DNA from: Thiomicrorhabdus sp. Kp2
GTDB taxonomy: Bacteria; Pseudomonadota; Gammaproteobacteria; Thiomicrospirales; Thiomicrospiraceae
DNA: 64,000 nucleotides
Direction of reading: 5' to 3'
Assembly: GCF_000478585.1 (NCBI RefSeq)
Contig: NZ_ARWI01000001.1
Location: forward strand, 930,001-994,000
Shown: positions 6,866 through 23,263 of the stretch, piece after piece
How positions within the stretch are numbered: the first letter of the stretch is position 1
Layout of the letters: each line of letters begins with the position of its first letter
Position numbers and translations under genes: made by a program
Notes under the pieces: model-generated
Seen by the model: only the letters and a program-made list of their open reading frames with translations
What the model was told of the DNA's origin: nothing
Databases searched by the model: none

Positions 6866-7908
6866 AATTCAACTCAATACAAACAAAATAATAGGTTGTG
6901 TATTCTATATTAAAAGACGCTAATTTTTCTGTTATTTTGCTTTAAATACGTACTTTCTCCCTAGAATTAATTAACCACGAAGACACGAAGGTTTTAAGGT
7001 ACCTTATGCATACTAAAACATAGGTGTTCACATGCCAGGCCTGGTTCAGTTATTAACGCAAGGAACGTTAGTGACGTGGCAATCTAGGGATTACGGCAAA
7101 GTTCAATATTTAGACGTTAACCATGGATTACTTCGCTTTGCTCGTAATGACGGGCGGTGTGGTTTGTCATTGCGAGGAACGTTAGTGACGTGGCAATCCA
7201 GGGTTTACGGCAAAATTCCTATTTAAGACGTTTACTCAATCTCTCTGTAAGTACGGTATTTAGATGTTAACCATGGATTACTTCGCTTTGCTCGTAATGA
7301 CGGGCGGCGAGTTCTTCGTTTCTCGTCTCTACAGCCGAGTTCTTTGTTTCTCGTCTCTGCAGCCAAGTTCTTCGTTTCTCAATTTCGGGTGGAAGGTTTT
7401 GTCATTGCGAGGAACGTTAGTGACGTGGCAATCCAGGGTTTACGGCAAAGCACCGTAGTTAGACGTAAACATGGAGTATTCGTTACTCTCACCCTACGGG
7501 TCGCCTTAACAGGCGTTCTTCGCTCTAAAGAGCTTGTGCTTCACTTCGTTCGCAATGACAGGCGGTGTGGTTCGTCATTGCGAGGAACGTTAGTGACGTG
7601 GCAATCCAGGGTTTACGGCAAAATTCCTATTTAAGACGTTTACTCAATCTCTCTGTAAGTACGGTATTTAGATGTTAACCATGGGTTGCTTCACTTCATT
7701 CGTAATGACGGGCGGTGTGGTTTGTCATTGCGAGGAACGTTAGTGACGTGGCAATCCAGGGTTTACGGCAAAGTTCAATATTTAGACGTTAACCATGGAT
7801 TACTTCGCTTTGCTCGTAATGACGGGCGGCGAGTTCTTCGTTTCTCGTCTCTACATCCGAGTTCTTTGATTCTCGACTTACCCTTTGGGTGTCGTGTCGT
7901 GTTAGTGG
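6866..7908. repeat. Palindromic repeat array 1 (gene-free stretch)
   Basis: No credible gene. It opens with an AACCACGAAGACACGAAG element (about 6973-6990) and a CCAGGCCTGG palindrome (7035-7044). Five repeat units follow, starting near 7056, 7166, 7401, 7574 and 7724, each running from a left arm GTCATTGCGAGGAACGTTAG to a right arm ending CTCGTAATGAC or TCGCAATGAC. Left arms here carry the inner stem CGT/ACG. The third unit has an extended right arm made of small hairpins (ACCC/GGGT, GCCT/AGGC, GCTCT/AGAGC). Links rich in CTCGTCTCT...GCCGAG lie between units. Open reading frames here are translations of the repeat. Confidence 0.92.
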
Positions 7909-8226
7909 TTATAGGTTTTCACTCACTCTTACATCAGGATCTTGCCTACCATGCAAGATACGAACAATCTCAAGAACTTTTTCTTGTTGACGATAATAAA
8001 CGATGTGTTTTTCGACAATAATCGATCTAATATTAGAATTAAGATCAGGTCTAACCTTGCCTTTAAGTGGCCGTTCACGTAGTGCTTGTAAAGCTTTTTT
8101 GAGAATCATAAGGTAGTTCTGTGCTTGCTTTTCACCCCAATTTTCTAAGGTATAATTAAATATACCAAAAATATCTGATTGAGCTACTGGCGCGACTACT
8201 AATTTTAAACTATTTTGATTTCCCAT
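7909..8226 (-). CDS. parE: ParE/RelE-family toxin
   Basis: Toxin half of a type II toxin-antitoxin pair. The 105 residues have the RelE/ParE layout: an N-terminal strand-helix (LKLVVAPVAQSDIFGIFNYT), an AL..RP turn and late strands SIIVEKHIVYYRQQ and VLEIVRILHGRQD, typical of ParE. Its ATG overlaps the antitoxin stop (TGATG), so expression is coupled. ParE toxins usually inhibit gyrase while RelE cleaves mRNA; sequence alone does not settle which applies here. The gene borders repeat array 1, and its 3' end lies just past the last unit. Confidence 0.88.
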   Translation of the reverse strand: MGNQNSLKLVVAPVAQSDIFGIFNYTLENWGEKQAQNYLMILKKALQALRERPLKGKVRPDLNSNIRSIIVEKHIVYYRQQEKVLEIVRILHGRQDPDVRVSENL

Positions 8227-8495
8227 CAGTCGATACGATGCTGTTGAATATCATCAAAAAACTGGTCTAGTGCTTGATAGGATTCAATTTCAATTCCCTT
8301 GCCTTGATCAAGTTCATTCATTCCAACATCAAGCTGTTTTCGTAGTGTAGCTAGCTTGACTTCGTCTATCCACTCTTGATTCATTTCTACAAAACGTAAC
8401 GCTTCACGCACCACTTCACTAGCGTTGTTATATAAACCCGTTGCAACTTTCGCTTTAATTCGATTTTCTAATTCAGGCGTTAGAGAAATATTCAT
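8226..8495 (-). CDS. parD: ParD-family antitoxin
   Basis: Antitoxin and probable autorepressor for the adjoining toxin. The 89 residues begin MNISLTPELENRIKAKV and contain ASEVVREALRFVE, the ribbon-helix-helix DNA-binding layout of ParD/CopG antitoxins; the acidic C-terminal half would bind the toxin. It precedes the toxin gene, and the two overlap by one base. An AAGGAG-like ribosome site lies just before the ATG at 8495. Confidence 0.9.
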   Translation of the reverse strand: MNISLTPELENRIKAKVATGLYNNASEVVREALRFVEMNQEWIDEVKLATLRKQLDVGMNELDQGKGIEIESYQALDQFFDDIQQHRID

Positions 8496-8575
8496 GGCTT
8501 ATCTCCTTTTACACATGTTTAAATAGCATTATCTCTCTATCAAACAAAGATTGTCAAAGATTGATTTTTATTTGA

Positions 8576-8609
8576 AGGACAGTAGCTTTGGGTACCGTCC
8601 CTGGCTTAC
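8576..8609. repeat. Short inverted repeat of the GGTACCGTCCC family
   Basis: GGACAGTA, six bases, then GGTACCGTCC: an imperfect hairpin with the same right arm as the element at 11664-11698. Such pairs are often linked to REP-type elements; no transposase is nearby. It overlaps the end of the pilin-like gene. Confidence 0.6.
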
Positions 8610-9124
8610 AACTTCATACAAAGTTGCGAGCCATTTAGTGTGTATTCTACTTCTCCGCTTGTTCTTGAGCCTTCATCAAGCTGTGTTTCTATTGCACTTG
8701 CAAGATCCACATCAATATTGGTAATACACATCTGATTGGCTCCCGCAATTAATCCGTAGTTTGCGCCACTGCTGCCACCCCATGTGGCTTTAAATGCCGT
8801 ACCGATTGACGGCATGGGTTGCAGACTTTGACTATAACCTGCTTGATAGATATCGTAAAAATAACCTTCGGTAGGTGACATTACGGTTGAAAGCACTGTT
8901 TTAAGCCTACCTGGATTTTCATCATCTTCTCCAGGCAGTTGCGACAGTTTGTCTTTGTAGAGCAGTGATATCATCTTAAATTCTGATAACTTTTTAATAT
9001 CGGCACGAATCTGGGCGTTTTCAATCATGGCTTGTGCTTTTAAAACACCGCCTATTAACAGTGCAATAATCATAAGAACAATACTCAGCTCAACCAAAGT
9101 AAATCCATTTTGATATCGATACAT
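8606..9124 (-). CDS. Type IV pilin/pseudopilin-like protein
   Basis: Has a class III prepilin signal: a short leader MYRYQNG, then FTLVELSIVLMIIALLIGGV with the conserved Phe1 and Glu5, followed by the amphipathic start of the pilin helix. Expected to be cleaved and N-methylated by PilD and to sit in the inner membrane or in a type IV pilus or type II secretion pseudopilus. The C-terminal region has two cysteines (near CITN and LCMKL). I choose the ATG at 9124 because AGGGGG lies seven bases upstream, instead of GTG at 9130. It is a lone gene with no pilus operon around it, set between repeat arrays. Specific function unknown. Confidence 0.78.
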   Translation of the reverse strand: MYRYQNGFTLVELSIVLMIIALLIGGVLKAQAMIENAQIRADIKKLSEFKMISLLYKDKLSQLPGEDDENPGRLKTVLSTVMSPTEGYFYDIYQAGYSQSLQPMPSIGTAFKATWGGSSGANYGLIAGANQMCITNIDVDLASAIETQLDEGSRTSGEVEYTLNGSQLCMKL

Positions 9125-9824
9125 ACCCACCCCCTACATTTGATATAGCCGCTACGAAATAATAAGAATTAATACTATATTAATAAGTAATAACTTACAA
9201 TCGGGTTTTATAAAGATTAATCTATAAAAATTAATAAGTTATGCAAAGAAAAGTGAGTTAGCCTTTAAATTAAAGTAAATATGACTGACCAGAATAGCAG
9301 TGACTGTGGAGCGTAGAACACCTGAAAATCGACCTCTTAGGGTGATTTGAGCAAAGCACTGTAGTTAGACGTTAACCCTGGAGTATTCGTTACTTTCACC
9401 CTACGGGTCGCCATAAATGGCGTTCTTCGCTCTTAAGAGCTTGTGCTTATTCATTTCGCAATGACGGGCGGTATAGGTTCGTCATTGCGAGGTCGAAGAC
9501 CGTGGCAATCCAGGACTTTCGGCAAAGCACTGTAGTTAGACGTTAACCCTGGATTGCTTCGCGTTGCTCGCAATGACAGGCGGTTGGTTGTCATCGCGAG
9601 CCCTTTGGGCGCGGCGATCCATGGCTCACGGCAAAGCACTGTAGTCAGACGTTAACCATGGATTGCTTCACTTCATTCGCAATGACCGTACAAAAACTTT
9701 ATTTCTCGGCTCTACAGCCGAGTTCTTCGTTTCGCAATATCTGGCGGAGGTTTGCTTTGCTTGCAAAGACGTGTAACGTTACAGATATGAGTTTTTCAAG
9801 ACGTTAGAGAAAAGGGTAAAGCAT
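9125..9824. repeat. Palindromic repeat array 2 (gene-free stretch)
   Basis: Bases 9125-9330 are AT-rich with nothing recognisable. From about 9341 there is a partial extended right arm (ACCC/GGGT, GCCAT/ATGGC and GCTCTTAAGAGC hairpins) ending at 9465. Two complete 97-base units follow: 9481-9577, with inner stem GGTC-GAA-GACC, and 9590-9686, with inner stem GCCC-TTT-GGGC. A CTCGGCT/AGCCGAG hairpin lies near 9706-9723. The reading frame at 9451-9639 is repeat translation. Confidence 0.9.
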
Positions 9825-10115
9825 ATGAAAAAAGGCTTTGTTTACATTATGACAAATCAAAAAAATGGAACTTTATATGTTGGAGTAACAAGCAATATTG
9901 TTAAACGCGTTTATGAACATAAAAACGCCTTAGCAGAAGGTTTTACTAAAAAATTTGGTTTAAAAAAATTAGTTTATTATGAGATTTTTGAGGATATTTC
10001 TATTGCAATTGAAAGAGAAAAGCAGCTCAAAGCAGGTAATCGAAAAAGAAAAATCGATTTGATTGATACCAACAACCCAAATTGGCTAGACTTATACTCA
10101 CAAATTTTAGAGTGA
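9825..10115 (+). CDS. Small GIY-YIG domain nuclease embedded in repeats
   Basis: A 96-residue single-domain GIY-YIG protein. Near the N-terminus it has the two strands FVYIMTN and GTLYVGVTS (the GIY and YIG positions), then the catalytic-type Arg in VKRVYEHKN and a Glu in IEREKQLKAG. A ribosome site (AAGGG) precedes the ATG. Proteins of this family are small metal-dependent endonucleases; cellular roles of the short stand-alone type are mostly unknown. The gene is intact and flanked closely on both sides by units of the palindromic repeat (9481-9686 and 10124-10935), so it could act on these repeats. That link is inference. Confidence 0.9.
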   Translation: MKKGFVYIMTNQKNGTLYVGVTSNIVKRVYEHKNALAEGFTKKFGLKKLVYYEIFEDISIAIEREKQLKAGNRKRKIDLIDTNNPNWLDLYSQILE

Positions 10116-10987
10116 ATAACAGCCTGTCCTCGCGAGCACTACGAGAGTGGCACAAGCGACGAAGGAGTGCAGAACACCTGCAAGGCGATCCCTTTAGGGG
10201 TGAGCGGAGCGAATACTCCAGAGCTTACGATTAAGCACTGCAGTCAGACTTTAACCATGGGTTGCTTCACTCCGTTCGCAATGACAGACGTTGTGGTTCG
10301 TCATCGCGAGCCCTTTGGGCGCGGCGATCCATGGCTCACGGCAAAGCACTGTAGTTAGACGTTAACCCTGGAGTATTCGTTACTTTCACCCTATGGGTCG
10401 CCATAAATGGCGTTCTTCGCTCTTAAGAGCTTGTGCTTCGCGTTGTTCTCGTCTCTGCAGCCGAGTTCTTTGTTTCGCATTGACCGTGAACTCGATTTTG
10501 TTTTTTTGTCATTGCGAGGTCGAAGACCGTGGCAATCCATCGTTCTCGGCAAAGCACTGTAGTTAGACGTTAACCATGGATTATTCGCTTTGCTCGCAAT
10601 GACAGTACAATAACTTTGTTTCTCGGCTCTGCAGCCGAGTGTTTTTTTGTAACTCTAAAAAAACACTGTCATCGCGAGCCCTTTAGGGCATGGCGATCCA
10701 GGGATTACGGCCAAGTATGTAGTTAGACGATAACCATGGGTTGCTTCACTCCGTTCGCAATGACAGACGGTGTGGTTCGTCATCGCGAGCCCTTTGGGCG
10801 TGGCGATCCATGACTTACGGCTAAACACTGTAGTCAGACGTCAACCATGGAGTATTCATTACTCTCACCCTACGGGCCGCCATAAATGGCGTTCTTCGCT
10901 CTTAAGAGCTTGTGCTTCGCGTTGTTCTCGTCTCTGCAGCCGAGTTCTATGTTCGCAATAATGGTGTGATTTAGGGGTGAAAATCGT
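10116..10987. repeat. Palindromic repeat array 3 (gene-free stretch)
   Basis: No gene. A diverged unit runs from about 10124 to 10285. Further units start at 10300 (inner stem GCCCTTTGGGC, extended right arm with GCCAT/ATGGC), 10508-10603 (GGTCGAAGACC), 10678-10764 (GCCCTTTAGGGC) and 10779 (GCCCTTTGGGC, extended right arm ending near 10935). The loop of one small hairpin differs (CCCTATGGG near 10390 against CCCTACGGG near 10870). The array ends shortly before mazF. Confidence 0.9.
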
Positions 10988-11296
10988 CTATGAAAGCATC
11001 TGAATAAGTGTATCGTGCCAATTATCTAACTCAATTTTTCCCATTTTGCTTTTTAGTCTTTTCTTATCAACGGTTCGGATTTGATCTAAAAGAATTCGAG
11101 CCATTTTGCCATTAAAAATGACTTCTGGACGACAGCCTAAAGATTGTCCTTTGGATGTAATTGGAGCAATAATGACACGAGGAAGCACACTATTCATATC
11201 GTCAGGAGATACAATCAAGCATGGACGTATTTTCTGAATTTCAGTACCAACAGTTGGATCAAGTTCTACCCAATAGACATCACCTCTATTTACCAT
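10988..11296 (-). CDS. mazF: MazF/PemK-family toxin
   Basis: Predicted sequence-specific mRNA endoribonuclease of a type II toxin-antitoxin system. The protein opens MVNRGDVYWVELDPTVGTE, the classic MazF/PemK start, continues with IQKIRPCLIVSPDDMN (the RP-x-LI core) and VIIAPITSKGQ, and ends with DQIRTVDKKRL. I choose the ATG at 11296, which has AGGA upstream, instead of TTG at 11302; this gives 102 residues and a 7-base overlap with the antitoxin gene. It adjoins repeat array 3. Confidence 0.92.
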   Translation of the reverse strand: MVNRGDVYWVELDPTVGTEIQKIRPCLIVSPDDMNSVLPRVIIAPITSKGQSLGCRPEVIFNGKMARILLDQIRTVDKKRLKSKMGKIELDNWHDTLIQMLS

Positions 11297-11544
11297 TCCC
11301 AATCCTCTTGCTCGGAATCAAGGTCTTTCATCTCTCCAAGAGGTTCAACATCTTGGCTTGCATCATACCCTTTAAACCAGTCTTGCCTAAGAGGTGTCAA
11401 TGGCTTTAAAAGCAAAGCACCTTCTTGAAGGACAAGCTCTATCTCATTCTCAAGATGAAGCTGCTCTATTAGAGCAGAAGGAATGATAACCCCTCTTGAA
11501 TTTCCAATTTTTCTGAGTGTTGTTTGCATTTTTTTACTCTTCAT
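11290..11544 (-). CDS. mazE: MazE-family antitoxin
   Basis: Antitoxin and likely autorepressor of the mazF pair. The 84 residues contain LRKIGNSRGVIIPSALIEQL, the AbrB/MazE swapped-hairpin DNA-binding motif, and an acidic tail (DVEPLGEMKDLDSEQEDWEW) that would bind the toxin. An internal ATG at 11529 is a possible alternative start. It precedes and overlaps mazF, as usual for this family. Confidence 0.92.
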   Translation of the reverse strand: MKSKKMQTTLRKIGNSRGVIIPSALIEQLHLENEIELVLQEGALLLKPLTPLRQDWFKGYDASQDVEPLGEMKDLDSEQEDWEW

Positions 11545-11663
11545 GTAATAACAATGTTAAAACAAATTATATAACTCCAAAGAAACTTCTGCAACCAGCT
11601 GTCATTTTTATCCATGAAACAAGCACAAGTAAATAACGGATGAAATAAGAGACGGCACCATTG

Positions 11664-11698
11664 ACCTTTGGGGACAGTACCCAAAGGTACCGTCCCTA
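11664..11698. repeat. Inverted repeat, GGTACCGTCCC family
   Basis: GGGACAGTACC and GGTACCGTCCC face each other around a four-base loop with one mismatch. The same right arm occurs at 8592-8602. It lies downstream of glgP, so it could also act as a weak transcript end. Class unproven. Confidence 0.6.
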
Positions 11699-11727
11699 AA
11701 CGGACTAAATGCAAGAAAGAAAGGTGT

Positions 11728-14220
11728 TTAGGATTTAATGGTAATTGGCTCTAGTTTCCAAATATCATCGTTATATTCTTTCATGGTTCTGTCGGTTGAA
11801 AAGATGCCGCTACGAGCTGAGTTAATAATGCTTTTTCTCACCCAATCATCTCTATCTTGATAGGCTTGTGCGGCATGTTCTTGAGCCTCTACGTAGCTTT
11901 GGAAATCTGCTAAGGTCATCCAAGGATCATTTGAACTTTTGATTGAGTTGATAATATCGTTAAAAATACCTGGTTCAAAATGATTAAAATGACCTGATTC
12001 GAGTAAACCCATTACGGCTTGTAAGTCGCTACTGGCATTGATGTAGTTTTGTGGCCGATAATGGTGTCGTAACTCTTCCACTTCTGGTGTTTGTAAACCA
12101 AATAGGAAGAAATTCTCATCACCGACGGCTTCTCGGATTTCAACGTTTGCGCCATCTAAAGTTCCAATGGTTAAAGCACCATTCATCATAAACTTCATAT
12201 TACCTGTACCAGAAGCTTCTTTACCTGCGGTAGAGATTTGTTCAGATAAATCAGTACCTGGGCAAATCACTTCCATGGCTGACACTCGGTAGTTTGGAAA
12301 GAACACCACCTTTAACTTATCGCCTACATCGGGATCTGCATTGATGATTTGCGCCACATTATTAATTAGCTTAATAATGTTTTTGGCCATGACATAACCT
12401 GGTGCGGCTTTACCACCAAAAATCACACTGCGATTGGTCCAGTTTTCGGTATCCCCACGTTTAATTCGTGAATAGAGATGAATTACATGCAATACATTCA
12501 ATAATTGGCGTTTGTATTCATGTATACGCTTAACCTGAACATCAAACATTGAATTGACATTAAGAGAGACCCCTGTTTCTTTTTTGATTAAATCTGCCAA
12601 GCGTTTTTTATTGGCTTGTTTAACATCGTACCACTGTGTTTGAAACTCTTTATCTGAAGCAAGCGGTTCTATTTTTTGTAAATCGGTTAGCTCTGTTATC
12701 CAGTTTTCGCCAATTTTATCTTTTAACAAGGCGCGCAATTTAGGGTTACAACCCGCTAACCAACGACGCTGCGTGACGCCATTAGTTTTGTTATTAAATT
12801 TTTCAGGCCATAGCTGATAAAAGTCGTTAAATAACCCCTCTTTTAACAATTCAGAATGCAGAGCTGCCACACCATTTACCGAATGACTCCCCACAATGGC
12901 CAAATAAGCCATGCAAATATTATTATGTTCATCAACAATCGACATGCGACGCAAACGATCATTATCAGCAGGCCATTTCATTGAAACCTGCGTCAAGAAA
13001 CGGTGATTAATTTCATAAATAATTTCGAGTGGGCGTGGCAGTAGTTTTTCAAATAACTCGACGGACCATTTTTCTAAAGCTTCGGGTAATAAGGTATGGT
13101 TTGTATAAGCCATTGTTTTAGAGACAATTGACCAGGCCTGATCCCACTCTAACCCTTCTTTATCAACAAAGAGACGCATTAACTCTGCAACGGCCAAACT
13201 TGGGTGAGTATCATTCAGCTGAAAAGCGTTAAATTCTGCAAAGTCATTAAAATCTTGATATTTGGCTTTCCATTGTTCAACCACATCTTGCAAGGAAGCT
13301 GAAACTAAAAAGTACTGCTGTTTTAAACGTAATTCTTTACCGTTTTCACTGCTGTCATTTGGGTATAAAACCATGGTAATGTTTTCGGCTTCAGACTTTT
13401 GAACTACCGCCTCATGGTATGAACCCGCGTTAAATTCAGACAAGTTAAAGCCTTCTTGCGCTTGAGCCGACCATAATCTTAAGGTGTTGACTGTACTATT
13501 TTTAAAACCTGGAATTGGCACATCATAAGGGACTGCTTCAACAATTTCGGCTTGTTCCCAATGCACAATAAGTTGCCCTGTATGAGGGTCTGTATAGGTG
13601 CGACTCGTACCACCGAATTTAATCACTCGCGTATATTCAGCACGTTCAATCTCCCACGGATAAGGGCCTGTACCCAACCAGTGGTCTGGCTCTTCGATTT
13701 GATAGCCATTTTGTATTAACTGACGAAACATGCCATATTCATAACGTAAACCATATCCCATTACTGGCAGTTGCAAAGTAGCACAACTATCCATAAAACA
13801 GGCTGCTAAACGACCTAAACCGCCATTTCCAAGACCCGCATCACGTTCCGCTTCCTCAATTTCTTCAAGACTTAAACCTAAATCGTACAGGGCTTCGTGG
13901 GTTTCATTTTCAACCCCCAGATTTAATAGATTATTGGTTAATGAGCGACCAATCAAAAACTCCATAGAGAGGTAGTAAGCCTTTTTGAGTTTTTTCTCAT
14001 TATAGGCTTCCCATGTCTTTTTCCAGTTTGTCATTAAACGATCGCGAACCGTATAAGAGAGCGCCTTAAAAAGGTAATAGTCTTCTGATGTTAAATTTCT
14101 ACCCAATGTATGGCATAAATATCTTAAAAAATCGGTTTCAATATCTTCTTTATCCATTCCAGTATGCTGAAGCATATCTGTAATGATTTCCATTCTTTTC
14201 GCTTCTATTGACGTTGGCAT
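11728..14220 (-). CDS. glgP: Glycogen phosphorylase
   Basis: Releases glucose-1-phosphate from glycogen or maltodextrin using pyridoxal phosphate. The 830 residues match the GT35 family length. The C-terminal half shows EASGTGNMKFMMNGALTIG, whose Lys binds PLP, then TLDGANVEIREAVG; earlier are RLAACFMDSCATL and FQLNDTHPSLAVAELMR. Its ATG directly follows the glgA stop with no gap, so the synthetic and degradative enzymes are co-transcribed. No anomaly seen. Confidence 0.97.
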   Translation of the reverse strand: MPTSIEAKRMEIITDMLQHTGMDKEDIETDFLRYLCHTLGRNLTSEDYYLFKALSYTVRDRLMTNWKKTWEAYNEKKLKKAYYLSMEFLIGRSLTNNLLNLGVENETHEALYDLGLSLEEIEEAERDAGLGNGGLGRLAACFMDSCATLQLPVMGYGLRYEYGMFRQLIQNGYQIEEPDHWLGTGPYPWEIERAEYTRVIKFGGTSRTYTDPHTGQLIVHWEQAEIVEAVPYDVPIPGFKNSTVNTLRLWSAQAQEGFNLSEFNAGSYHEAVVQKSEAENITMVLYPNDSSENGKELRLKQQYFLVSASLQDVVEQWKAKYQDFNDFAEFNAFQLNDTHPSLAVAELMRLFVDKEGLEWDQAWSIVSKTMAYTNHTLLPEALEKWSVELFEKLLPRPLEIIYEINHRFLTQVSMKWPADNDRLRRMSIVDEHNNICMAYLAIVGSHSVNGVAALHSELLKEGLFNDFYQLWPEKFNNKTNGVTQRRWLAGCNPKLRALLKDKIGENWITELTDLQKIEPLASDKEFQTQWYDVKQANKKRLADLIKKETGVSLNVNSMFDVQVKRIHEYKRQLLNVLHVIHLYSRIKRGDTENWTNRSVIFGGKAAPGYVMAKNIIKLINNVAQIINADPDVGDKLKVVFFPNYRVSAMEVICPGTDLSEQISTAGKEASGTGNMKFMMNGALTIGTLDGANVEIREAVGDENFFLFGLQTPEVEELRHHYRPQNYINASSDLQAVMGLLESGHFNHFEPGIFNDIINSIKSSNDPWMTLADFQSYVEAQEHAAQAYQDRDDWVRKSIINSARSGIFSTDRTMKEYNDDIWKLEPITIKS

Positions 14221-15738
14221 TTACTTATTCTCCGAATAAAGTTCTACATATTTTTTTGCACTGTTTTTCCAGCCTAGAGGCTGTTCCATACCTGTTTTCT
14301 GTATTTTTTGCCAAGTACGTTTTTTACCAAACAGATGCAAAGCATGCAGTATGGTTGACTTTAATGCATGACGACTTGGGTCATAAAACACAAACCCTGT
14401 TGCCGTTCCTGCTTTGATGTTTTCATCCGTGGCATTGACAACGGTGTCAGCCAGTCCACCTGTATGGTGAACAATCGGAGGCGTGCCATACGCCAAACTA
14501 TACATTTGATTTAACCCACAAGGTTCAAAACGAGAAGGCATTAAAAACATGTCCGCCCCCGCTTCAACTCTGTGTGCTAAAGATTCTGAATATCCCATAA
14601 AGGCCCAAATTCGTGTTGGAAACTTTTTTGCCAACTCTTTGACTTGGGCTTCGTAGTGTTTTTCGCCCGCTCCTACAATCACAAAGTTTGCATTGGTTTG
14701 CTGAATAATTTCGGGCATCACATCCAACACTAAGTCCATGCCTTTTTGGCCAACCATGCGCCCTACAAAACCAATTAAGGGTTTGTCTAAACAGTTGGCT
14801 AAACGGGCAACAGATTTTTTTTCTTTCTCTCCCCTAAACAAACATAACTCACTTAATAAAGCTTCTTTGTTTGCTTGCTTAGCGGCCATTCGGCCTTTTT
14901 TAACAGAGTAATTTTGCACGATTAAATTATCGGTTTCGGGGTTCCAAACATGCTCATCAATACCATTGATAATACCGACCAAACGCCCTTCTTCGTGGCG
15001 TTTTTGTAAAACCCCTTCAAGCCCATAAGCAAATTCGGGGTAACAAATTTCTTTTGCATAAGTTGGGCTTACAGTTGAGACCCAATCGGCCTTAATTAAG
15101 CCCGCTTTAAGCATTGAAAAATGACCGTAAAACTCTACTCCCTCTATTCCCCAAAGCTTCCAAGGTAAGTGTAAATTATCAAATAAAGACTTAGGGAAGT
15201 TTCCAGGATACGCCATATTATGAATCGTAAATACTGTCTTAGGCGCATCCTTTTCTAAACTTAGCAACGCTGGCACTAAACCCGTTTGCCAATCATTGGC
15301 ATTCACTACATCAGGCTTCCATTTTAGCCCTACCCGATCCATGGCGATTTCATTCACTACCATAGAAAAAACCGCAAAACGCTCACCATTATCCCACCAA
15401 TCGGTGCCATCTTCGGCTAAGTACGGATTACCAGGCCTGTCAAACAATTCTGGAATATCAACCAACCAAACGGGAAAATCAACCCCATCAATCGCGCCAA
15501 TTTTAAGCTGTAAAATACGAGCTGACAGCACTTTTCCACAACCGTTTACCGTTAACTCCGCCACTTTTTTAAGTGATTTTTGAGGTATTTTTTTTAATAC
15601 CGATTGGTAAGCGGGCAAAACTAAACGCGCCTTTTGCTTTAGCGCCACTAACGCATTGGGTAAGCTACCTGAAACATCTGCTAAACCACCTGTTTTAATA
15701 AATGGATGCGCTTCAGATGAGGCAAAAAGAATTTTCAT
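14221..15738 (-). CDS. glgA: Glycogen synthase (ADP-glucose type)
   Basis: Extends alpha-1,4-glucan chains from ADP-glucose. The 505 residues begin MKILFASSEAHPFIKTGGLADV, with the ADP-glucose-binding KTGGL motif at 15-19. The C-terminal GT-B half shows FVGRMVGQKGMDL and the SRFEPCGLNQMYSLAYGT acceptor/nucleotide motif of the GT5 family. It is followed without a gap by glgP. The substrate is supplied by glgC at 23264. Confidence 0.97.
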   Translation of the reverse strand: MKILFASSEAHPFIKTGGLADVSGSLPNALVALKQKARLVLPAYQSVLKKIPQKSLKKVAELTVNGCGKVLSARILQLKIGAIDGVDFPVWLVDIPELFDRPGNPYLAEDGTDWWDNGERFAVFSMVVNEIAMDRVGLKWKPDVVNANDWQTGLVPALLSLEKDAPKTVFTIHNMAYPGNFPKSLFDNLHLPWKLWGIEGVEFYGHFSMLKAGLIKADWVSTVSPTYAKEICYPEFAYGLEGVLQKRHEEGRLVGIINGIDEHVWNPETDNLIVQNYSVKKGRMAAKQANKEALLSELCLFRGEKEKKSVARLANCLDKPLIGFVGRMVGQKGMDLVLDVMPEIIQQTNANFVIVGAGEKHYEAQVKELAKKFPTRIWAFMGYSESLAHRVEAGADMFLMPSRFEPCGLNQMYSLAYGTPPIVHHTGGLADTVVNATDENIKAGTATGFVFYDPSRHALKSTILHALHLFGKKRTWQKIQKTGMEQPLGWKNSAKKYVELYSENK

Positions 15739-15907
15739 GCAATTTCCTGATTTTTTAATTTTTATTAAGCGTTTTTGAATTTAACCACGAAGACACGAAG
15801 GCACGAAGTTTTTTACAAGAGACCTTTGCACGAGTCAAGGCACGGTTGTTAACCAAAACTAGACCAACAGTCATAAATACCACTCTAGTTCATTCACTCT
15901 TCTTTAT
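15739..15907. repeat. Spacer with AACCACGAAG element and a lone IS5-like end
   Basis: Contains AACCACGAAGACACGAAG (about 15782-15799) and a single GAGACCTTTGCACGAGTC at 15820-15837, identical to the termini of the element at 19604-19764. No partner end is nearby, so it is a solo remnant. Confidence 0.75.
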
Positions 15908-18124
15908 TCACTCTAGCCTTAAAACCACCACACTAAGCGGTGGTAACGTTAATTCTGCTGAATACGGCTGATTCATCCACGGCGTTTCTTGGCTTATCAC
16001 TAAACCCGCATTACCGATATTAGCGCCACCAAAGATTTCTGAATCCGAATTCAACACTTCAATGTAGTTACCTGCCTGAGGTAAACCAATACGATAATGC
16101 TCCCTCGGCACAGGCGTGAAGTTAAAGACGCAGACTAATTTTTGATTTTCAGCGTGTCTAATAAAACTTAACACCGATTGTTGGTAGTCGTGACAATCAA
16201 TCCATTCAAATCCGTGTGCCTCAAAATCACGCTCATACAATGCTGGATGCGATTTATACAATTCGTTAACAGACTTAGCCAATAACTGAATACCTCTATT
16301 TAAAGGTTGATCACATAGATACCAATCTAAAGCACGCGATTCACTCCACTCACCCCATTGCGCGAATTCACACCCCATAAACAACAACTTTTTACCTGGA
16401 TGAAGCGCTTGATAAGCCAATAATAAACGGAGGTTAGCGGCTTTTTGCCAATTATCACCAGGCATCTTTTCAATTAAAGAGCCTTTTAAATGCACCACCT
16501 CGTCGTGTGACAACGGCAATACAAAATTCTCTGTATAAGCATAAACTTGGCTAAAGGTGAGCTGGTTATGGTGATATGGCCTAAAAATAGGGGCTTTTTC
16601 AAAATAGTCTAGAGTGTCATTCATCCACCCCATATTCCATTTCATAGAAAACCCTAAACCGCCCATCCACGTTGGGCGTGAAACCATTGGCCAAGAAGTT
16701 GACTCCTCAGCCATAACGACGGCACCTGGGCATTGTGAGTGCACCTGTTCGTTTAACGCTCGTAAAAAGTTAATCGCCTCTAGGTTTTCACGACCACCAT
16801 GTTCGTTTGCCACCCACTGACCCGCTTCACGCGAATAGTCGAGATACAGCATCGAGGCCACCGCATCAACACGTAAGCCATCAATATGCAGTTCTTTCAG
16901 CCAATACAGTGCGTTACTGATTAAAAAATTACGCACCTCATTACGGCCAAAATTGAAAATATAAGTTCCCCAATCTTGATGTTCACCTTTGCGTGGATCT
17001 TCATGCTCATATAATGCACTGCCATCAAAACGACCTAAAGCAAATTCGTCTTTTGGAAAGTGGGCTGGTACCCAATCCAAAAACACACCTATGTCATTCT
17101 GATGACAATAATCAACAAAATAACGAAAATCATCTGGCGAACCAAAACGGCTAGTGGGTGAAAAGTAGCCTGTCGTTTGATAGCCCCAAGATTCATCCAA
17201 TGGGTGTTCTGAAATGGGCAAGAGTTCTATATGGGTATAGCCCATCCACTTTACGTACTCCACCAAACGATGGGCAATTTCACGGTAGTTTAAAAAACCA
17301 CCTTCATCTGTTCTTTGCCAAGAACCTAAATGCACTTCATAAATATTAATGGGCGATTTCTGCCAATCAAATTCAGCTAATTTTTTTGACCAGGCCTGGT
17401 CATTCCATTGATGCTTAGATTCATAGATTACACAGCCTGTTTTTGGACGATGCTCCATTGAAACCGCATAAGGATCGGTTTTGGTAAAACAGTGACCCGT
17501 TTGATGATTACGAATTTCAAACTTATAAATATCACCTTCTTGCAGGCCTGGTATAAACAGCTCCCACACACCAGAACCGCCATTCACACGCATAGGGTGA
17601 CGTAAACCATGCCAACCATTAAAGTCACCCACCACAGAAACTCGTTCAGCTGAAGGCGCCCAAACTGCGAATTGCACCCCAGAAATACCATCGATTACTT
17701 TTGGATGAGCGCCTAAAACGTCATATAAACTCCAATGCTGGCCTTCAGAAAACAGGTGCAAATCCAACTCACCTAACTGCGGTAGAAAGGTATAGGGAGA
17801 AACGGCTTCGTGTTTAGAGTTATCTTTTTCAGTCCATTTAACAGCAAAATGTTTTGGTAATGCCTCTTTCTGTTTATCGGTGATAAAGGCCATAAACATA
17901 TCTGAGCCTTCAATACGCTGTAATTCAATACCTTCAACACTCGCTGATTCAGCGGTTGGCAACCAAGCGGTTAAGGTCCAACCATTTTCTTTATGTTCAG
18001 CTTTCTCAGCAGGGTCAACAGGGTGGCAACCTAAAAAATGAAATGGGTCATGGTGACGGCCTTCTGCTAAAACACGAATGTTTGTCTGTAAAAGTTTGCC
18101 AAGTGTTTGCCAGCTAATTTGCAT
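15908..18124 (-). CDS. glgB: 1,4-alpha-glucan branching enzyme
   Basis: Introduces alpha-1,6 branches into glycogen. From the ATG at 18124 it is 738 residues; a TTG four codons upstream is possible but less likely. The layout is N-terminal glycogen-branching modules ([23 protein letters not shown]48 type) followed by a GH13 barrel with [12 protein letters not shown] (nucleophile Asp), MAEESTSWP (acid Glu) and [12 protein letters not shown] (third acidic residue). Length and motif order fit the two-module E. coli type. Its ATG is 57 bases after malQ. Confidence 0.96.
17399..17410. repeat. CCAGGCCTGG palindrome inside glgB
   Basis: Exact ACCAGGCCTGGT, translated in glgB as part of DQAWS, a different reading from the PGLV seen in glmS and ubiB. 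A one-mismatch form (GCAGGCCTGGT) lies at 17542-17552. Confidence 0.9.
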
Positions 18125-18182
18125 ATGTTCTACCAAAGTTTTACCAATTTATTATTTCTTGAACGTTTTTACGTATCGTATT

Positions 18183-19577
18183 TTATAAGCGCTCTGAATC
18201 TTCAATTAAAATCCGAATGTTTGCCGCCAAGTTGTCGGGAACTTGCGACCAATTAAACTGCCAACGCCAATTTCCATCACACACGCCTGGCACATTCATA
18301 CGGTGTTCACCGTCCAGCATTAAAAAATCTTGCATCGGTACAATCACTCGTTGAGCAACCGAATTAAATGCCGCCATAATTAATGGCCACGGCATGGGTT
18401 TAGCATACTCTTCTAACAGTTCGGTTTCAGCCATTTTTTGTTCAGCTAATGGCATTAACTGCTCCATAACCCAATTTCGTGTTCCTTCGTTTTCACTCTC
18501 AAACCAACCTAAAGAGGTATCGTTATCATGCGTTCCCGTATAGGTCACCGAATTTTGTACCTGCTCATGTAGAGAGTGCGGATTATCGGGCAAACCATTA
18601 AAGCCAAACTGTAAAACGGACATCCCTGGCAAGCCGTACTTCTCTTTAAGAGCAACCACTTCTTCGGTAATAATCCCCAAATCTTCTGCCACTAAAGGTA
18701 AATCAGGAAAATCTGTTTTCAATGCCGCCAGTAAATCATCGCCAGGCGTTTTTACCCACTTGCCATTTATTGCGGTTTCTTCACTGGCTTCTATCTCCCA
18801 AGAGGCTTCTAACCCTCTAAAATGGTCGATTCGCACTAAATCAAACTGGCTTAGCGCTTCTGCTACACGCTGTCTCCACCATTCAAAACCATCGGCGGCC
18901 ATAACATCCCAATTGTAATGAGGATTACCCCAGCGCTGACCCGTTACTGAAAAATAATCAGGCGGAACGCCAGTTACCACCGTTGGATTTAAATGCTCAT
19001 CCAGTTTAAATTGACCTGGGTTTGCCCAAACATCAGCACTATCAAAAGCCACAAAAATCGGCATATCACCAAACAGAGAAATGCCTTTTTGATTGGCATC
19101 TGCTTTTAATGTATGCCACAACCTGTTCAGGGCAAATTGTTGTTTTTTTAATTGGGTTAATTCACGCTCATGCGCTTGAGAAAACGCTGCAATGGCGTTG
19201 GCATGACGATATTTCAAACCTTCAGGCCAATGCACCCAAGAAGCATTATTTTGACTTTTACGAATGGCCATAAATAAAGCGTAGTCTTCTAACCAATGCG
19301 GTGGATTCGCCAGATAAAGCGCGAATTTTACCTGGCTAAACTCGGCCTCCCAATTATTGGGCAGTAAAGCGGGGTTTAGGGCAAAAGCAGAAACCGATTG
19401 ATAAGGCGATAAATCTTCATGTGGCTGCGTTAAAGGTAACATTTGCCAAATCGATAAACCTGCCGACTGCATCCAATCTAAAAACAACCAGGCCTGGTCA
19501 TTTAATTGACCTGGCAAGCCTTCTTTATTAGGTAATGACGTTGGATGAAGTAACACCCCTGCTTGTCTTTTATTCAC
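18183..19577 (-). CDS. malQ: 4-alpha-glucanotransferase (amylomaltase)
   Basis: Transfers alpha-1,4-glucan segments between chains; in this cluster it would recycle short maltodextrins. The 464 residues (GTG start) correspond to the shorter bacterial GH77 form, not the about 690-residue E. coli MalQ. Motifs: AGVLLHPTSLP at the start, FDLVRIDHFRGLEASWEI with the nucleophile Asp, PLVAEDLGIITEEV with the acid Glu, and VTYTGTHDNDTSLGW with the third catalytic Asp. The C-terminus is short, so the end should be compared with relatives. Confidence 0.94.
   Translation of the reverse strand: MNKRQAGVLLHPTSLPNKEGLPGQLNDQAWLFLDWMQSAGLSIWQMLPLTQPHEDLSPYQSVSAFALNPALLPNNWEAEFSQVKFALYLANPPHWLEDYALFMAIRKSQNNASWVHWPEGLKYRHANAIAAFSQAHERELTQLKKQQFALNRLWHTLKADANQKGISLFGDMPIFVAFDSADVWANPGQFKLDEHLNPTVVTGVPPDYFSVTGQRWGNPHYNWDVMAADGFEWWRQRVAEALSQFDLVRIDHFRGLEASWEIEASEETAINGKWVKTPGDDLLAALKTDFPDLPLVAEDLGIITEEVVALKEKYGLPGMSVLQFGFNGLPDNPHSLHEQVQNSVTYTGTHDNDTSLGWFESENEGTRNWVMEQLMPLAEQKMAETELLEEYAKPMPWPLIMAAFNSVAQRVIVPMQDFLMLDGEHRMNVPGVCDGNWRWQFNWSQVPDNLAANIRILIEDSERL
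19487..19498. repeat. CCAGGCCTGG palindrome inside malQ
   Basis: Exact ACCAGGCCTGGT, read as part of DQAWLF near the malQ N-terminus. Confidence 0.9.
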
Positions 19578-19603
19578 ACAGTTATCTCTACTCTATATAT
19601 TTA

Positions 19604-19764
19604 GAGACCTTTGCACGAGTCTATGAACGTATAAAAACGGCTATAATCCTCTATCTTCAGGCTAAAAAGTCCGCCCAATAACTCGTTATTATGCGTATTT
19701 TTTAGCCTAAATCTAAAGAATTCTATCTCGTTTTTCTTACATCCCTGACTCGTGCAAAGGTCTC
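19604..19764. mobile_element. 161-bp MITE-like element with IS5-type ends
   Basis: Bounded by perfect 18-base inverted repeats GAGACCTTTGCACGAGTC (19604-19621) and its complement (19747-19764). The interior is non-coding and has its own stem, GGCTAAAAA (about 19660) against TTTTTTAGCC (about 19706). GAGACCTTTGCA is reminiscent of IS5-family termini, so this is probably a non-autonomous derivative moved by an IS5-type transposase elsewhere. I could not identify a clear target duplication (flanks TTTA and ATTT). Single ends occur at 15820 and near 27988. Confidence 0.78.
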
Positions 19765-21011
19765 ATTTAAAAGCTTAACCACGAAGACTCGAAGTCACGA
19801 AGAAAAGACCCTGTTACTTTGAAAACCATAAAACCTCAACAACAATGTCATCGCGAGCCTTTTAGGGCGTGGCGATCCAGGGATTACGGCCAAGTATGTA
19901 GTTAGACGTTAACCATGGATTGCTTCGCTTCGCTCGCAATGACAGTACAATAACTTTGCTTCTCAGCTCTGCAGCCGAGTTCTTTTGTAACTCTAAAAAA
20001 CACTGTCATCGCGAGCCCTATAGGGCGTGGCGTTCCAGGGATTACGGCCAAGTATGTAGTTAGACGATAACCATGGATTGCTTCGCTTCGCTCGCAATGA
20101 CAGTACAATAACTTTGTTTCTCAGCTCTGCAGCCGAGTTCTTTGTTTCGCATTGACCGTGAACTCGATTTTGTTTTTTTGTCATTGCGAGGTCGAAGACC
20201 GTGGCAATCCATCGTTCTCGGCAAAGCACTGTAGTTAGACGATAACCATAGATTGCTTCGCTTTGCTCGCAATGACAGTACAATAACTTTGTTTCTCGTC
20301 TCTGCAGCCGAGTGTTTTTTTGTGATTCTAAAAAAACACTGTCATCGCGAGCCCTATAGGGCGTGGCGATCCAGGGATTACGGCCAAGTATGTAGTTAGA
20401 CGTTAACCATGGATTGCTTCGCTTTGCTCGCAATGACAGTACAATAACTTTGCTTCTCAGCTCTGCAGCCGAGTTCTTTGTTTCGCATTGACCGTGAACT
20501 CGATTTTGTTTTTTTGTCATTGCGAGGTCGAAGACCGTGGCAATCCATCGTTCTCGGCAAAGCACTGTAGTTAGACGATAACCATGGATTGCTTCGCTTC
20601 GCTCGCAATGACAGTACAATAACTTTGTTTCTCGTCTCTGCAGCCGTGTTTTTTTGTGATTCTAAAGAACACTGTCATCGCGAGCCCTATAGGGCGTGGC
20701 GATCCAGGGATTACGGCCAAGTATGTAGTTAGACGATAACCATGGATTGCTTCGCTTCGCTCGCAATGACAGTACAATAACTTTGTTTCTCGTCTCTGCA
20801 GCCGAGTTTTTTTTTGTGATTCTAAAGAACACTGTCATCGCGAGCCCTTTAGGGCATGGCGATCCAGGGATTACGGCCAAGTATGTAGTTAGACGTTAAC
20901 CATGGATTATTCGCTTTGCTCGCAATGACAGTACAATAACTTTGTTTCTCGTCTCTGCAGCCGAGTTCTTTGTTTCACAGTCAATTAAGTAGCAGTTAAC
21001 ACGATTTAATA
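19765..21011. repeat. Palindromic repeat array 4, seven units with 336-bp higher-order period
   Basis: After an AACCACGAAGACTCGAAG element (about 19780) come seven 96-97-base units: 19847-19943, 20005-20101, 20180-20276, 20341-20437, 20516-20612, 20674-20770 and 20834-20929. Inner stems are GCCTTTTAGGG, GCCCTATAGGGC, GGTCGAAGACC, GCCCTATAGGGC, GGTCGAAGACC, GCCCTATAGGGC and GCCCTTTAGGGC. The GCCC and GGTC types alternate, so a dimer of about 336 bases is repeated (20005 to 20341; 20180 to 20516). Spacers of 60-80 bases hold a CTGCAGCCGAG hairpin piece. All reading frames here are repeat translations. Confidence 0.92.
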
Positions 21012-22727
21012 TCAATTACGGCGCATGGTACCTGAATTTTCCATATCACCACCACCATAAGAGATAGGTATATTCAAACTTTCTGGTGGTGTCTGTTTCA
21101 ACAAGTCATATAAACGTGTTAAATGCCTGCGATAGAGCCTATCAAAATCTTGCACACTATCCGATGGGTTGTAACCACCAAACCACCAGAACCAATCTGA
21201 CCCTTCACAAATGGCAAGTTGCTCAGTCGCTTGTTTAAGCTCTGCTTCTGAGAGAACATGAGATAAAACCACCTCATCAAAACACTGTTTTGCTTCTACC
21301 AGCAAATCCCAACCTTTGTTTTTATCATCGTCACCAATCCAGGTTGAAAAGGAACCATACACCCAGCTACCTGCTTTAAGAACAGGTAAGTGACGAACTT
21401 TAGCACCGTTTTCTAAAGCGTCTGAAAAGGTGGTCATTTCAATATGTGGATGGCTTGAAAGCTTATCGTATAGAGCCGTTAAAAAGTGATTGGCATTTTC
21501 AGGATAATATTCCCAGGCATTTTCACCATCCAATATGACAGACACTACATGCTCTTTTACTTCACTGCTTAAAAAATTGGCAATGTTATCCATGTGTTGG
21601 GCAAAGTCATTCGCGGCATCAATCGGGTTCCAATCTTTATACTGAAAACCCACCATATCGGACAAACCATCATCTCTAAAAAACATGGCGCATTTTTGAG
21701 AAGCGTGTTGCAAAGGTTGATAAAGCGCTTTTTTACTGTGTAAATCATGCTGATTAACACACGAGGCTTCACAAGAGTGGCGCCAAACACCTTCACCTGA
21801 TGCGGTCCACTTAATATCGTATTCATCCAACAAACCTACTGCTGCACTACTGATTGCGCCTTCTGACAACCAAACACCTTTGGGCTTAGCGCCAAAATGT
21901 TGCTCATACACTTTAAAGCCATGCTCCATATGCCATTTAGAACGTTCATAGCCATCTGGATAGCTTTTGTAGATTGGGGTTGGTGCATCAGGCATGGCAT
22001 CTCGCATACTGGCAAAATCAATTAACAGCGGTACAATCGGATGACCATAAGGCGTCATGGAAATTTCAATTTGCCCTTTTTCCATTAACGCTCGGTAACG
22101 CGGGATAATGCTCTCCACCGCATCCGCCATAATCTCAATTAGTGTACGTTGAGTGTCAGTTGAAAAATGGCCTTTTTGCGCCATTAAACTCTCAAGACGT
22201 GAATCAGACTCTCTCAGACTTTCTCCCATCCAGGCCAGGTGATACCAAACCAATAAATCGGTAAAATATTGCGGGTTTAGATACGCTAGCTGATGATTCT
22301 CACCCTCTAACTCTGGATTGTATCCCGCTAAATCAACCAAAGCTCTAAAATCAGGCAATACATCAATCATCGTGGGTGCATGAGCGCGCAAACAGACACT
22401 AATCACCTCTTCTCTGCCTTCAATCGAGATAGGAATTGGTGTCTCGCCAGCCACTAAATTCAGCAAAGGGTCTTGCATTGCTGTGCCGTTTTTTAACCAA
22501 TTACGCATCTGAGCCGCATAATCATCTAACTGTTCCAATAACACAGGCGCAAAATTGACCACCACTTTGGCTTGCGGGCATTTCTCAAGATGCCAAACCA
22601 TATCGGCATAATCTTTAATGGCGTGCAAATACACCCAAGGCAAACGGTAGACGCCATCTAAACCATCACGATAATGCGGTTGGTGCATATGCCAACATAA
22701 AACCACTTTTAATTTTTTAGTTTCCAT
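21012..22727 (-). CDS. Glycoside hydrolase family 57 enzyme (alpha-glucan acting)
   Basis: A cytoplasmic retaining alpha-glucan hydrolase or transferase of family GH57, probably acting on glycogen or maltodextrin given its neighbours. The 571 residues show WHMHQPHY (12-19, first GH57 region), GVWLSEGAISSAAVGLLDEY carrying the candidate nucleophile Glu, and VILDGENAWEYYP with the candidate acid/base Asp. No signal peptide. GH57 members may be amylases, amylopullulanases, 4-alpha-glucanotransferases or branching enzymes; a specific activity cannot be assigned here. It lies between arrays 4 and 5, apart from its likely operon partners. Confidence 0.9.
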   Translation of the reverse strand: METKKLKVVLCWHMHQPHYRDGLDGVYRLPWVYLHAIKDYADMVWHLEKCPQAKVVVNFAPVLLEQLDDYAAQMRNWLKNGTAMQDPLLNLVAGETPIPISIEGREEVISVCLRAHAPTMIDVLPDFRALVDLAGYNPELEGENHQLAYLNPQYFTDLLVWYHLAWMGESLRESDSRLESLMAQKGHFSTDTQRTLIEIMADAVESIIPRYRALMEKGQIEISMTPYGHPIVPLLIDFASMRDAMPDAPTPIYKSYPDGYERSKWHMEHGFKVYEQHFGAKPKGVWLSEGAISSAAVGLLDEYDIKWTASGEGVWRHSCEASCVNQHDLHSKKALYQPLQHASQKCAMFFRDDGLSDMVGFQYKDWNPIDAANDFAQHMDNIANFLSSEVKEHVVSVILDGENAWEYYPENANHFLTALYDKLSSHPHIEMTTFSDALENGAKVRHLPVLKAGSWVYGSFSTWIGDDDKNKGWDLLVEAKQCFDEVVLSHVLSEAELKQATEQLAICEGSDWFWWFGGYNPSDSVQDFDRLYRRHLTRLYDLLKQTPPESLNIPISYGGGDMENSGTMRRN

Positions 22728-23263
22728 AACCCTTATTTCTATTTTTATTCTAATTATTCATTTATCTATATCGTAGGCAATTAACCACCAAGACACGAAG
22801 TTTTTAAAAACTTGGTCATTGCGAGGTCGAAGACCGTGGCAATCCATGGCTCTTGGCAAAGCACCGTAGTCAGACGTTAACCATGGATTGCTTCGCTTCA
22901 CTCGCAATGACCGTCGGATTGGATATAGTTTTAAAGTGTAGCCCTTCGGATCGTTATAAATAGCGTTCTACGCTCCAAAGAGCTTGTGCTTCGCTTCGTT
23001 TTCATCTCTGCAGCCGAGTTGTTTGTTTCTCCATCTCTGTAGCCGAGTATTTTTTTGTAACTCTAAACAACACTGTCATCGCGAGCCCTTTAGGGCGTGG
23101 CGATCCATGGCTTACGGCTAAAGATGTAGGCAGACGTTAACCATGGATTATTCGTTACTCTCACCCTACGGGTCGCCTTAACAGGCGTTCTTCGCTCTAA
23201 AGAGCTTGTGCTTCGCTTCGTTTTCGTCTCTGCAGCCGAGTTTTTGTGGTTAACCATTCTTTT
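22728..23263. repeat. Palindromic repeat array 5 (gene-free stretch)
   Basis: Starts with a variant AACCACCAAGACACGAAG (about 22783). One full unit lies at 22815-22911 (inner stem GGTCGAAGACC), followed by fragments with GCTCCAAAGAGC and CTGCAGCCGAG. A second unit begins at 23075 (GCCCTTTAGGGC) and runs into the extended right arm with GCCT/AGGC and GCTCTAAAGAGC, ending near 23240. No gene seen. Confidence 0.9.

Follow-up and report, generated by a model that had tools for sequence, protein, structure and literature searches.

A small GIY-YIG nuclease as the probable partner of CGTC-type hairpin repeats in Thiomicrorhabdus and other bacteria

Short hairpin repeats form five arrays within a 64,000-nt stretch of the genome of Thiomicrorhabdus sp. 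Kp2 (assembly GCF_000478585.1, contig NZ_ARWI01000001.1, positions 930,001-994,000 of the forward strand; hereafter the window), and among these arrays lies a gene for a GIY-YIG nuclease of 96 amino acids. We consider it probable that this small nuclease is the dedicated partner of the hairpins and that the two spread, in a manner resembling homing, as a nuclease-hairpin pair. That the nuclease and the hairpins belong together is the firmer part of this proposal and in our opinion very likely; to the nuclease driving the spread by cutting hairpin DNA we give about an even chance. The units share the frame GTC, AT-stem, loop, stem-AT, CCA, with inverted (head-outward) pairs, or dimers, being common, a frame that they have in common with the CGTC-tagged repetitive extragenic palindromes (REPs). 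An earlier note on the same DNA had described the paired changes in the stems of these repeats; neither the nuclease gene nor the CGTC-REP frame figured in it.

Hairpins around the nuclease gene

Relatives of the nuclease were collected by a two-peptide-pattern scan of a species-genome collection, which returned 335, and the best 80 of these were kept. The 80 loci represent at least 16 named phyla, with no phylum named for 13 of the loci, and the open reading frame (ORF) of the gene is intact in every one of them; sequence sets A2 and A3 cover 54 of the 80, with L013 and L016 omitted from A2 (internal stop). A hairpin fitting the strict motif lies within 500 bp of the gene in 75 of the 80, and hairpin density is 3.01/kb near the gene as against 0.163/kb beyond 1.5 kb, the corresponding values for a scrambled motif being 0.013 and 0.005. 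The nearest upstream hairpin has the + orientation in 56 of 67 cases and the nearest downstream one the - orientation in 55 of 68, at median distances of 23 bp ahead of the start codon and 7 bp past the stop codon. An inverted hairpin pair within 150 bp brackets the gene in 48 of the 80 loci, in the way that terminal inverted repeats enclose the enzyme gene of an insertion sequence, the window copy being an exception; the same loci gave 2 bracketed cases among 1466 other short ORFs and 7 among 11566 random windows. Within 1.5 kb, any match to the hairpin was present at 2 of 20 other GIY-YIG genes (UPF0213/YhbQ-like), and a hairpin was present at 10 of 11 nearer copies of the family, including two paralogues from the Kp2 genome itself.

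Hairpins kept as RNA terminators or stabilizers of their neighboring genes, the nuclease gene included, would account for the closeness of the downstream hairpin to the stop codon, and Di Nocera et al. (2013; PMC3733652) discuss REPs of both super-families as RNA elements. Such a regulatory function, however, does not explain why a mirror-oriented hairpin stands upstream, why the hairpins are linked to one nuclease family and other short ORFs are not, or why stem class corresponds to enzyme clade, as described next; we regard it as quite improbable.

Protein clade predicts the stem class of the hairpins, even across phyla. On the weakly resolved protein tree the stem class changes 10 times, compared with 27.9 times after shuffling (0 of 200 shuffles), and in 44 of 63 cases a locus has the same stem class as its closest relative outside its own phylum, compared with 26.3 (0 of 1000). 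The phylum of the host is barely predictive: 140 of 300 same-phylum pairs agree in class, as against 1156 of 2775 pairs overall. The five hairpin-less loci were left out of these tests, and the cross-phylum form was also made without the loci lacking a named phylum.

Enzyme and hairpins also occur together. The gene is common, being found in 97 of 398 genomes of the phylum (E <=1e-20), where it is annotated merely as "GIY-YIG nuclease family protein"; it is present in 20 of the 24 genomes with at least five ATTGC-type hairpins and in 77 of the 374 others (Fisher 4.8e-10, uncorrected for kinship). Among 32 genomes of the window's genus, at least three hairpins occur in 6 of 6 with a strong enzyme match and in 1 of 26 without.

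On its Pfam domain (Table 1) the protein is assigned with assurance to the GIY-YIG fold family. Twelve alignment columns are invariant in 63 proteins, among them Y7, Y18, R28, E65 and N84, whose catalytic role is that of the corresponding residues in I-TevI and UvrC. The ratio of nonsynonymous to synonymous change (pN/pS) lies between 0.08 and 0.31 in 12 gene pairs, showing the gene to be under purifying selection. A structure model of the protein has a mean predicted local distance difference test score (pLDDT) of 95.4; the nearest solved structures by sequence are 1zg2 and 1ywl, both UPF0213 proteins, and by structure Slx1 (Z 7.3), 1zg2 (Z 6.7) and the catalytic domain of I-TevI (Z 5.8), all weak scores on their own. 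The UPF0213/YhbQ-like proteins and Slx1 are thus its closest solved folds, but the UPF0213-like genes of the relatives lack such hairpins, and Slx1 acts together with Slx4 on branched DNA, as the titles of the structure entries have it. With free-standing homing endonucleases of the I-TevI kind the system shares the GIY-YIG catalytic fold and a gene that is present or absent at one site; unlike them, it has a protein of 96 amino acids with neither an intron nor a separate DNA-binding domain, and its gene has hairpin brackets. Its homing-like spread is our reading of these data. A phage origin of the nuclease was rejected, since among 50,697 phage records the protein had no match at E 1e-10.

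The Kp2 genome has three further, near-identical paralogues of the gene, 55% identical to the window protein, in a separate array with GTCATCCTGA...TCAGGATC hairpins. Two of them stand between the members of an inverted hairpin pair of stem class GTCATCCTGA, a class other than that of the window's arrays, and the tandem genes look as if they had been amplified together with their hairpins. Another small GIY-YIG gene of this genome, which we labelled UPF0213/YhbQ-like, has no hairpins. A palindromic GGTACCGTCCC repeat occurs at positions 8590 and 11679 of the window and also beside the paralogous GIY-YIG array (L001, 291-310).

Paired changes in the stems

The earlier note had claimed that the outer stem of the left arms alternates between ATTGC/GCAAT and ATCGC/GCGAT, a change on one side being matched by a change on the other. 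All 15 left arms that it named were read, and the pairing is kept in 14 of them (Table 1), so that the observation of paired stem changes is confirmed. The exception at 20005 (ATCGC/GCGTT) is indeed the only one among these left arms; two right arms of array 3 break the rule as well (ATTGC/GCAAC), and one left arm listed at 10678 belongs at 10668. The inner stems GGTC/GACC, GCCC/GGGC and CGT/ACG do swap as wholes, and the extended right arms keep their pairs, as GCCATAAATGGC (three times) and GCCTTAACAGGC (twice), to which a third form, GTTATAAATAGC (once), can be added.

Within the window an outer C-G accompanies the inner stem GCCC and an outer T-A accompanies GGTC or CGT; because the outer change thus travels with the type of inner stem, the window by itself holds few independent events. 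Elsewhere in the genome further events are provided by a GCCC unit with an outer T-A (G000:C1:2149315) and by the outer stems ATTAC/GTAAT and TTTGC/GCAAA. This brings the outer stems in the parts of the genome that were read to four (ATTGC, ATCGC, ATTAC and TTTGC), their complements being present save for the exceptions already named.

The covariation called for by the earlier note was borne out by shuffle tests, both within the genome and across phyla. Among 23 distinct forms of the long hairpins of the Kp2 genome, 92.9% of cells are paired, against 80.4% after shuffling, with a covariation score of 0.333 against 0.133; for 16 distinct forms of the short hairpins the values are 97.3% against 89.0% and 0.339 against 0.175. 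None of 500 shuffles reached the paired fraction or the covariation score of either set. In both sets the number of pair types showed no excess over the shuffles, and for the short forms 57 of 500 shuffles had at least as many doubly changed pairs as were observed. For the comparison across phyla we took one hairpin from each of 79 loci, picking the 3' arms blind to pairing. Stem positions 3, 4, 5 and 6 were complementary in 64, 60, 64 and 27 of the 79 loci, compared with 47.3, 29.2, 44.8 and 14.6 after shuffling, and none of 2000 shuffles reached the observed value at any of these four positions. At position 3 there are 55 loci with T-A and 7 with C-G, and at position 4 there are 32 with G-C, 22 with C-G and 5 with A-T. 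The complementarity across these loci means that the hairpin itself is conserved. The shuffles ignore relatedness, and it is the spread of the hairpins over many phyla that answers the objection of shared descent.

The earlier note had concluded that there is selection for a folded RNA or single-stranded DNA, and not just copying. Selection on the local hairpin is supported by the shuffles within the genome and over the 79 loci; between RNA and single-stranded DNA covariation does not discriminate. We favor DNA as the acting form, an inference from the tight bracketing of the nuclease gene and from the patchy insertions.

It had also been proposed that the local left hairpin is kept even where pairing with the right arm is then imperfect. 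Ten dimers of the window have spacers of 40-41 bp, and in five of these the left arm has C; all five face a right arm with T, which creates a mismatch in the long palindrome, and in four of the five the local pair is kept. This much agrees with the proposal; when four dimers were folded as single-stranded DNA, however, three preferred one long hairpin, which counts against local pairing taking precedence over long-range pairing.

Repeat family, insertion sites and mode of spread

We file the units of the window as REP dimers in the CGTC-tagged frame, and as a further family, not one of CGTC-1 to CGTC-4, because the main hairpin of the window has an interrupted stem. The unpaired terminal tag reads, in the 32 strict matches of the window, CGTC in 9, TGTC in 20 and GGTC in 3 (9661, 22815 and 22886); the outer stem has the form AT.../...AT and the tail is CCA or similar to CCA, the exceptions in the stem being 20005, the GCAAC forms and a TTTGC class. 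CGTC-1 to CGTC-4 have an unbroken stem of 8-9 bp and a loop of 4-5, whereas the window hairpins are built of a 5-bp outer stem, an internal loop and an inner stem of 2-5 bp. As described by Di Nocera et al. (2013; PMC3733652), the CGTC REPs include the Neisseria dRS3 elements, which are CGTC-1, and Rickettsia RPE-4 and RPE-6; their terminal CGTC is unpaired and often altered to TGTC or CCTC. Inverted dimers predominate among them. They were reported from five phyla, without a dedicated transposase, and what moves them was left open by those authors. The likeness to the window units extends to the C/TGTC tag, the AT-initial stem, the CCA tail, the inverted dimers, the patchy occurrence and the absence of a flanking gene for a REP-associated tyrosine transposase (RAYT). 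The differences lie in the described stem of 8-9 bp and in the dedicated nuclease gene that adjoins window-type hairpins, the string GIY being absent from the text of that paper (PMC3733652).

The dimers of the window also resemble REPINs, the non-autonomous inverted hairpin dimers that GTAG REPs form, and the genome has matches to the RAYT domain PF01797 at four places, two of them adjacent. Both points favor an ordinary REPIN system, in which a RAYT (a Y1 transposase) spreads the dimers. However, the tag here is GTC(A) and not GTAG, none of the four RAYT matches has a CGTC-type hairpin within 1.5 kb, the RAYT genes being flanked by other inverted repeats (GGGGTCAGAG and similar), and in the available part of the 2013 survey no RAYT gene is flanked by CGTC units (PMC3733652). 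We rejected RAYT as the mobilizer because its genes lack these hairpins, and think it very improbable. What REPIN/RAYT and the nuclease-hairpin pair have in common is an enzyme encoded by one gene, with hairpin DNA as its possible substrate; the fold of the nuclease is unrelated to that of the Y1/HUH transposase, and its gene itself stands between two hairpins. As a separate observation, AAATAATTGGGGTCAGAGTAAAATTA repeats occur in the window as two tandem pairs (40693-40768 and 41197-41272) and match the inverted repeats that flank the RAYT genes at L008/L010; their sequence is similar to the GGGGWSAS ends described for RAYT-like genes (PMC3733652).

Presence and absence at one site is seen on Sphingobium plasmids, where the site is flanked by fnrL and the gene of a response regulator: seven records have the nuclease gene, two have one hairpin and no gene, and two have neither. 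The solo hairpin could, from these three states, be either the site before the gene arrived or the scar left by its loss. In the three gene copies aligned base by base there are GTCACCCCGGG hairpins on both sides, and one of the three has a gene one base shorter and unannotated; the other four gene records were judged by full-length match. In the window's genus two hairpin sites of the Kp2 genome were compared with orthologous loci. At the first (L208), the 500 bp behind the gene are free of hairpins in all 13 loci; at the second (L211), 18 of 19 have no hairpin, and in the remaining one (L256, genome G019) roughly the same position is taken by a dimer with different stem types. This comparison included L251 with 263 bp only, and left three further matches unread. 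The boundaries of the insertions in this genus cannot be aligned because the nearest relative is just 73-76% identical in coding DNA. A repeat of ~56 bp at the first site (L208, 602-658), unrelated to the hairpins, has at least 16 copies in the relative G016 and several in the Kp2 genome.

Further afield, the gene is found between sufB and sufC, flanked on both sides by REP hairpins, on AZO_p3 of Azospirillum lipoferum 4B (L278); it is bracketed by GTCGCCCCGTG hairpins on pNL2 of Novosphingobium aromaticivorans, and stands in a Neisseria gonorrhoeae record among GTCATTCCCGC hairpins, which we take to be dRS3, given the equation of that repeat with CGTC-1 (PMC3733652). Between organisms, the DNA similarity of gene copies stops at the outer edge of the hairpin in some of the listed pairs (L043/L061 and L089/L115). 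No clean pair of filled and empty sites was found around the Rhizobium and Novosphingobium copies, and a Shinella site was set aside as such a pair, since it differs by a larger region.

The full unit would consist of a hairpin, ~20 bp, the 290-bp gene, ~7 bp and an inverted hairpin. We propose that, as DNA is replicated or supercoiled, the GTC-tagged hairpin becomes extruded and that the nuclease, with its fold like those of the structure-selective Slx1 and of the catalytic domain of I-TevI, a homing endonuclease, would cut at or near it; repair of the break from another copy would then carry the hairpins, and at times the gene between them, to new sites. Dimers without a gene would be non-autonomous copies, and recognition of the folded hairpin would keep the stem paired as its letters drift, which would give the paired changes. 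The data show covariation, bracketing, agreement of enzyme clade with stem class, purifying selection and presence or absence at sites; cutting, its substrate and the route of repair are inferred.

Several observations weigh against this proposal. The 80 loci are the closest of the 335 relatives, and in a less selected sample from the 97 enzyme-bearing genomes (in which the Kp2 locus, the 29 best new loci and 57 further loci, one per genome, were examined) a strict hairpin lies within 500 bp in 23 of the 29 and 31 of the 57. The window's own nuclease gene is not cleanly bracketed and seems to be a worn or rearranged copy. The protein tree is poorly resolved, with 45 of 78 inner branches open, and structural Z scores below 8 may reflect no more than a common arrangement. 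Of the 97 enzyme-bearing genomes, 77 have fewer than five hairpins by the genome-wide count, which is of ATTGC-type only, and in 4 of the 24 hairpin-rich genomes no enzyme is found at E 1e-20. Within the genus, G007 has 35 hairpins and no strong enzyme match, while the strong match of G015, like one of the two in G013, has an internal stop. The similarity of gene copies stops inside the gene in many listed pairs and passes the hairpin in three pairs of near relatives. Finally, strand joining is not known for GIY-YIG enzymes.

In the 57 further loci hairpin density is still 1.55/kb near the gene and 0.14/kb far from it, and under a relaxed stem rule a hairpin is found in 24 of the 29 and 38 of the 57 loci, the control heads giving 10, 7 and 20 of 57 as against 38 for GTC. 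By either rule 41 of the 57 have a hairpin and 16, a further point on the negative side, have none; the link fades towards the edge of the family, or the hairpins differ there. We relied on the strict rule because the relaxed one gave, in the 80 loci, a higher density near the gene for a control head as well, TCG, out of the three used (1.1 as against 0.19/kb), which we think is because TCG can fall inside the hairpins themselves; the relaxed rule finds just 34 of the 80 loci because interrupted stems fail it.

The hairpin-rich genomes lacking the enzyme, the 26 of 57 less selected copies with no strict hairpin nearby and the arrays that lie far from any gene copy would all suit a mere passenger relationship, in which gene and hairpins gather in the same permissive intergenic places or ride on a third enzyme with no mutual action. 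We nonetheless think this unlikely, since orientation and distance are fixed on both sides of the gene, other short ORFs are hardly ever so bracketed, and enzyme clade agrees with stem class across phyla.

If the nuclease is the partner of the hairpins, a common gene with an uninformative annotation would acquire a role. A broader proposal, which we would neither bet on nor against, is that minimal selfish elements of ~0.35-0.4 kb, made of the 96-amino acid nuclease between inverted GTC-tagged hairpins, occur throughout the bacteria; fold and tag would be read over letters, enzyme and stem would co-evolve, and such elements would have seeded the CGTC REPs (dRS3, the Rickettsia RPEs and others) of many phyla. 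They would then provide a further route for the spread of short DNA, beside RAYT transposases and homing introns. With a candidate enzyme bracketed by CGTC-type hairpins, the question of what moves the CGTC REPs, including Neisseria dRS3, becomes directly testable with the 96-amino acid protein. A search of open PubMed Central showed no paper linking GIY-YIG genes with REPs; it did not extend to subscription papers or preprints, and an earlier mention is possible.

Arrays of the window and other repeats

The strict motif fits 53 places in the whole Kp2 genome, and read backwards it fits none; the strict match at 14334 of the window is probably due to chance. In array 4 six of the seven left hairpins are in dimers with spacers of 40-41 bp. 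At gathering thresholds, Rfam returned two tRNAs for the whole window and nothing else.

Table 1. Hairpin arrays and GIY-YIG genes (positions in the window unless stated otherwise)
Feature	Position	Strand	Remarks
GIY-YIG nuclease gene, 96 aa	9825..10115	+	in the arrays; PF01541, E 3.4e-16
Worn GTCTTTGC-type hairpin	9749-9770	-	upstream of the nuclease gene
Worn GTCCTCGC-type hairpin	from 10126	+	downstream of the nuclease gene
Worn unit	from ~7056		precedes array 1
Array 1	7126..7823	+	4 long left hairpins (7166, 7401, 7574, 7724; inner stem CGT/ACG)
Array 1, right hairpins (n = 3)	7126-7151, 7276-7301, 7798-7823		type ATTAC/GTAAT
Array 2	9481..9686	+	2 dimers: 9481-9577 (left ATTGC/GCAAT) and 9590-9686 (left ATCGC/GCGAT, right ATTGC)
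Array 3	10259..10808	+	left hairpins 10300, 10668, 10779 (ATCGC/GCGAT) and 10508 (ATTGC/GCAAT), then extended arms
Array 3, right arms with broken outer pair	10259-10285, 10738-10764		GCAAC
Array 4	19847..20864	+	7 left hairpins: 20180, 20516 (ATTGC/GCAAT); 19847, 20341, 20674, 20834 (ATCGC/GCGAT); 20005 (broken pair)
Array 5	22815..23240	+	dimer 22815-22911 (left ATTGC/GCAAT) and left hairpin 23075 (ATCGC/GCGAT) with extended arms
Lone hairpin	5726..5757	-	in ORF 4985-6865, beyond the coordinates of the earlier note
Three tandem paralogous GIY-YIG genes	G000:C1:906000-913500 (L216)		in ~1.6 kb, Kp2 genome; GTCATCCTGA-type hairpins near each

Copies of a TTAACCACGAAGACACGAAG-like sequence adjoin three of the hairpin arrays, at 6971, 19788 and 22783. 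Directly ahead of array 4 lies a stretch of ~161 bp (19604-19764) that resembles a miniature inverted-repeat transposable element, its ends being inverted over ~18 bp (GAGACCTTTGCACGAGTC / GACTCGTGCAAAGGTCTC).

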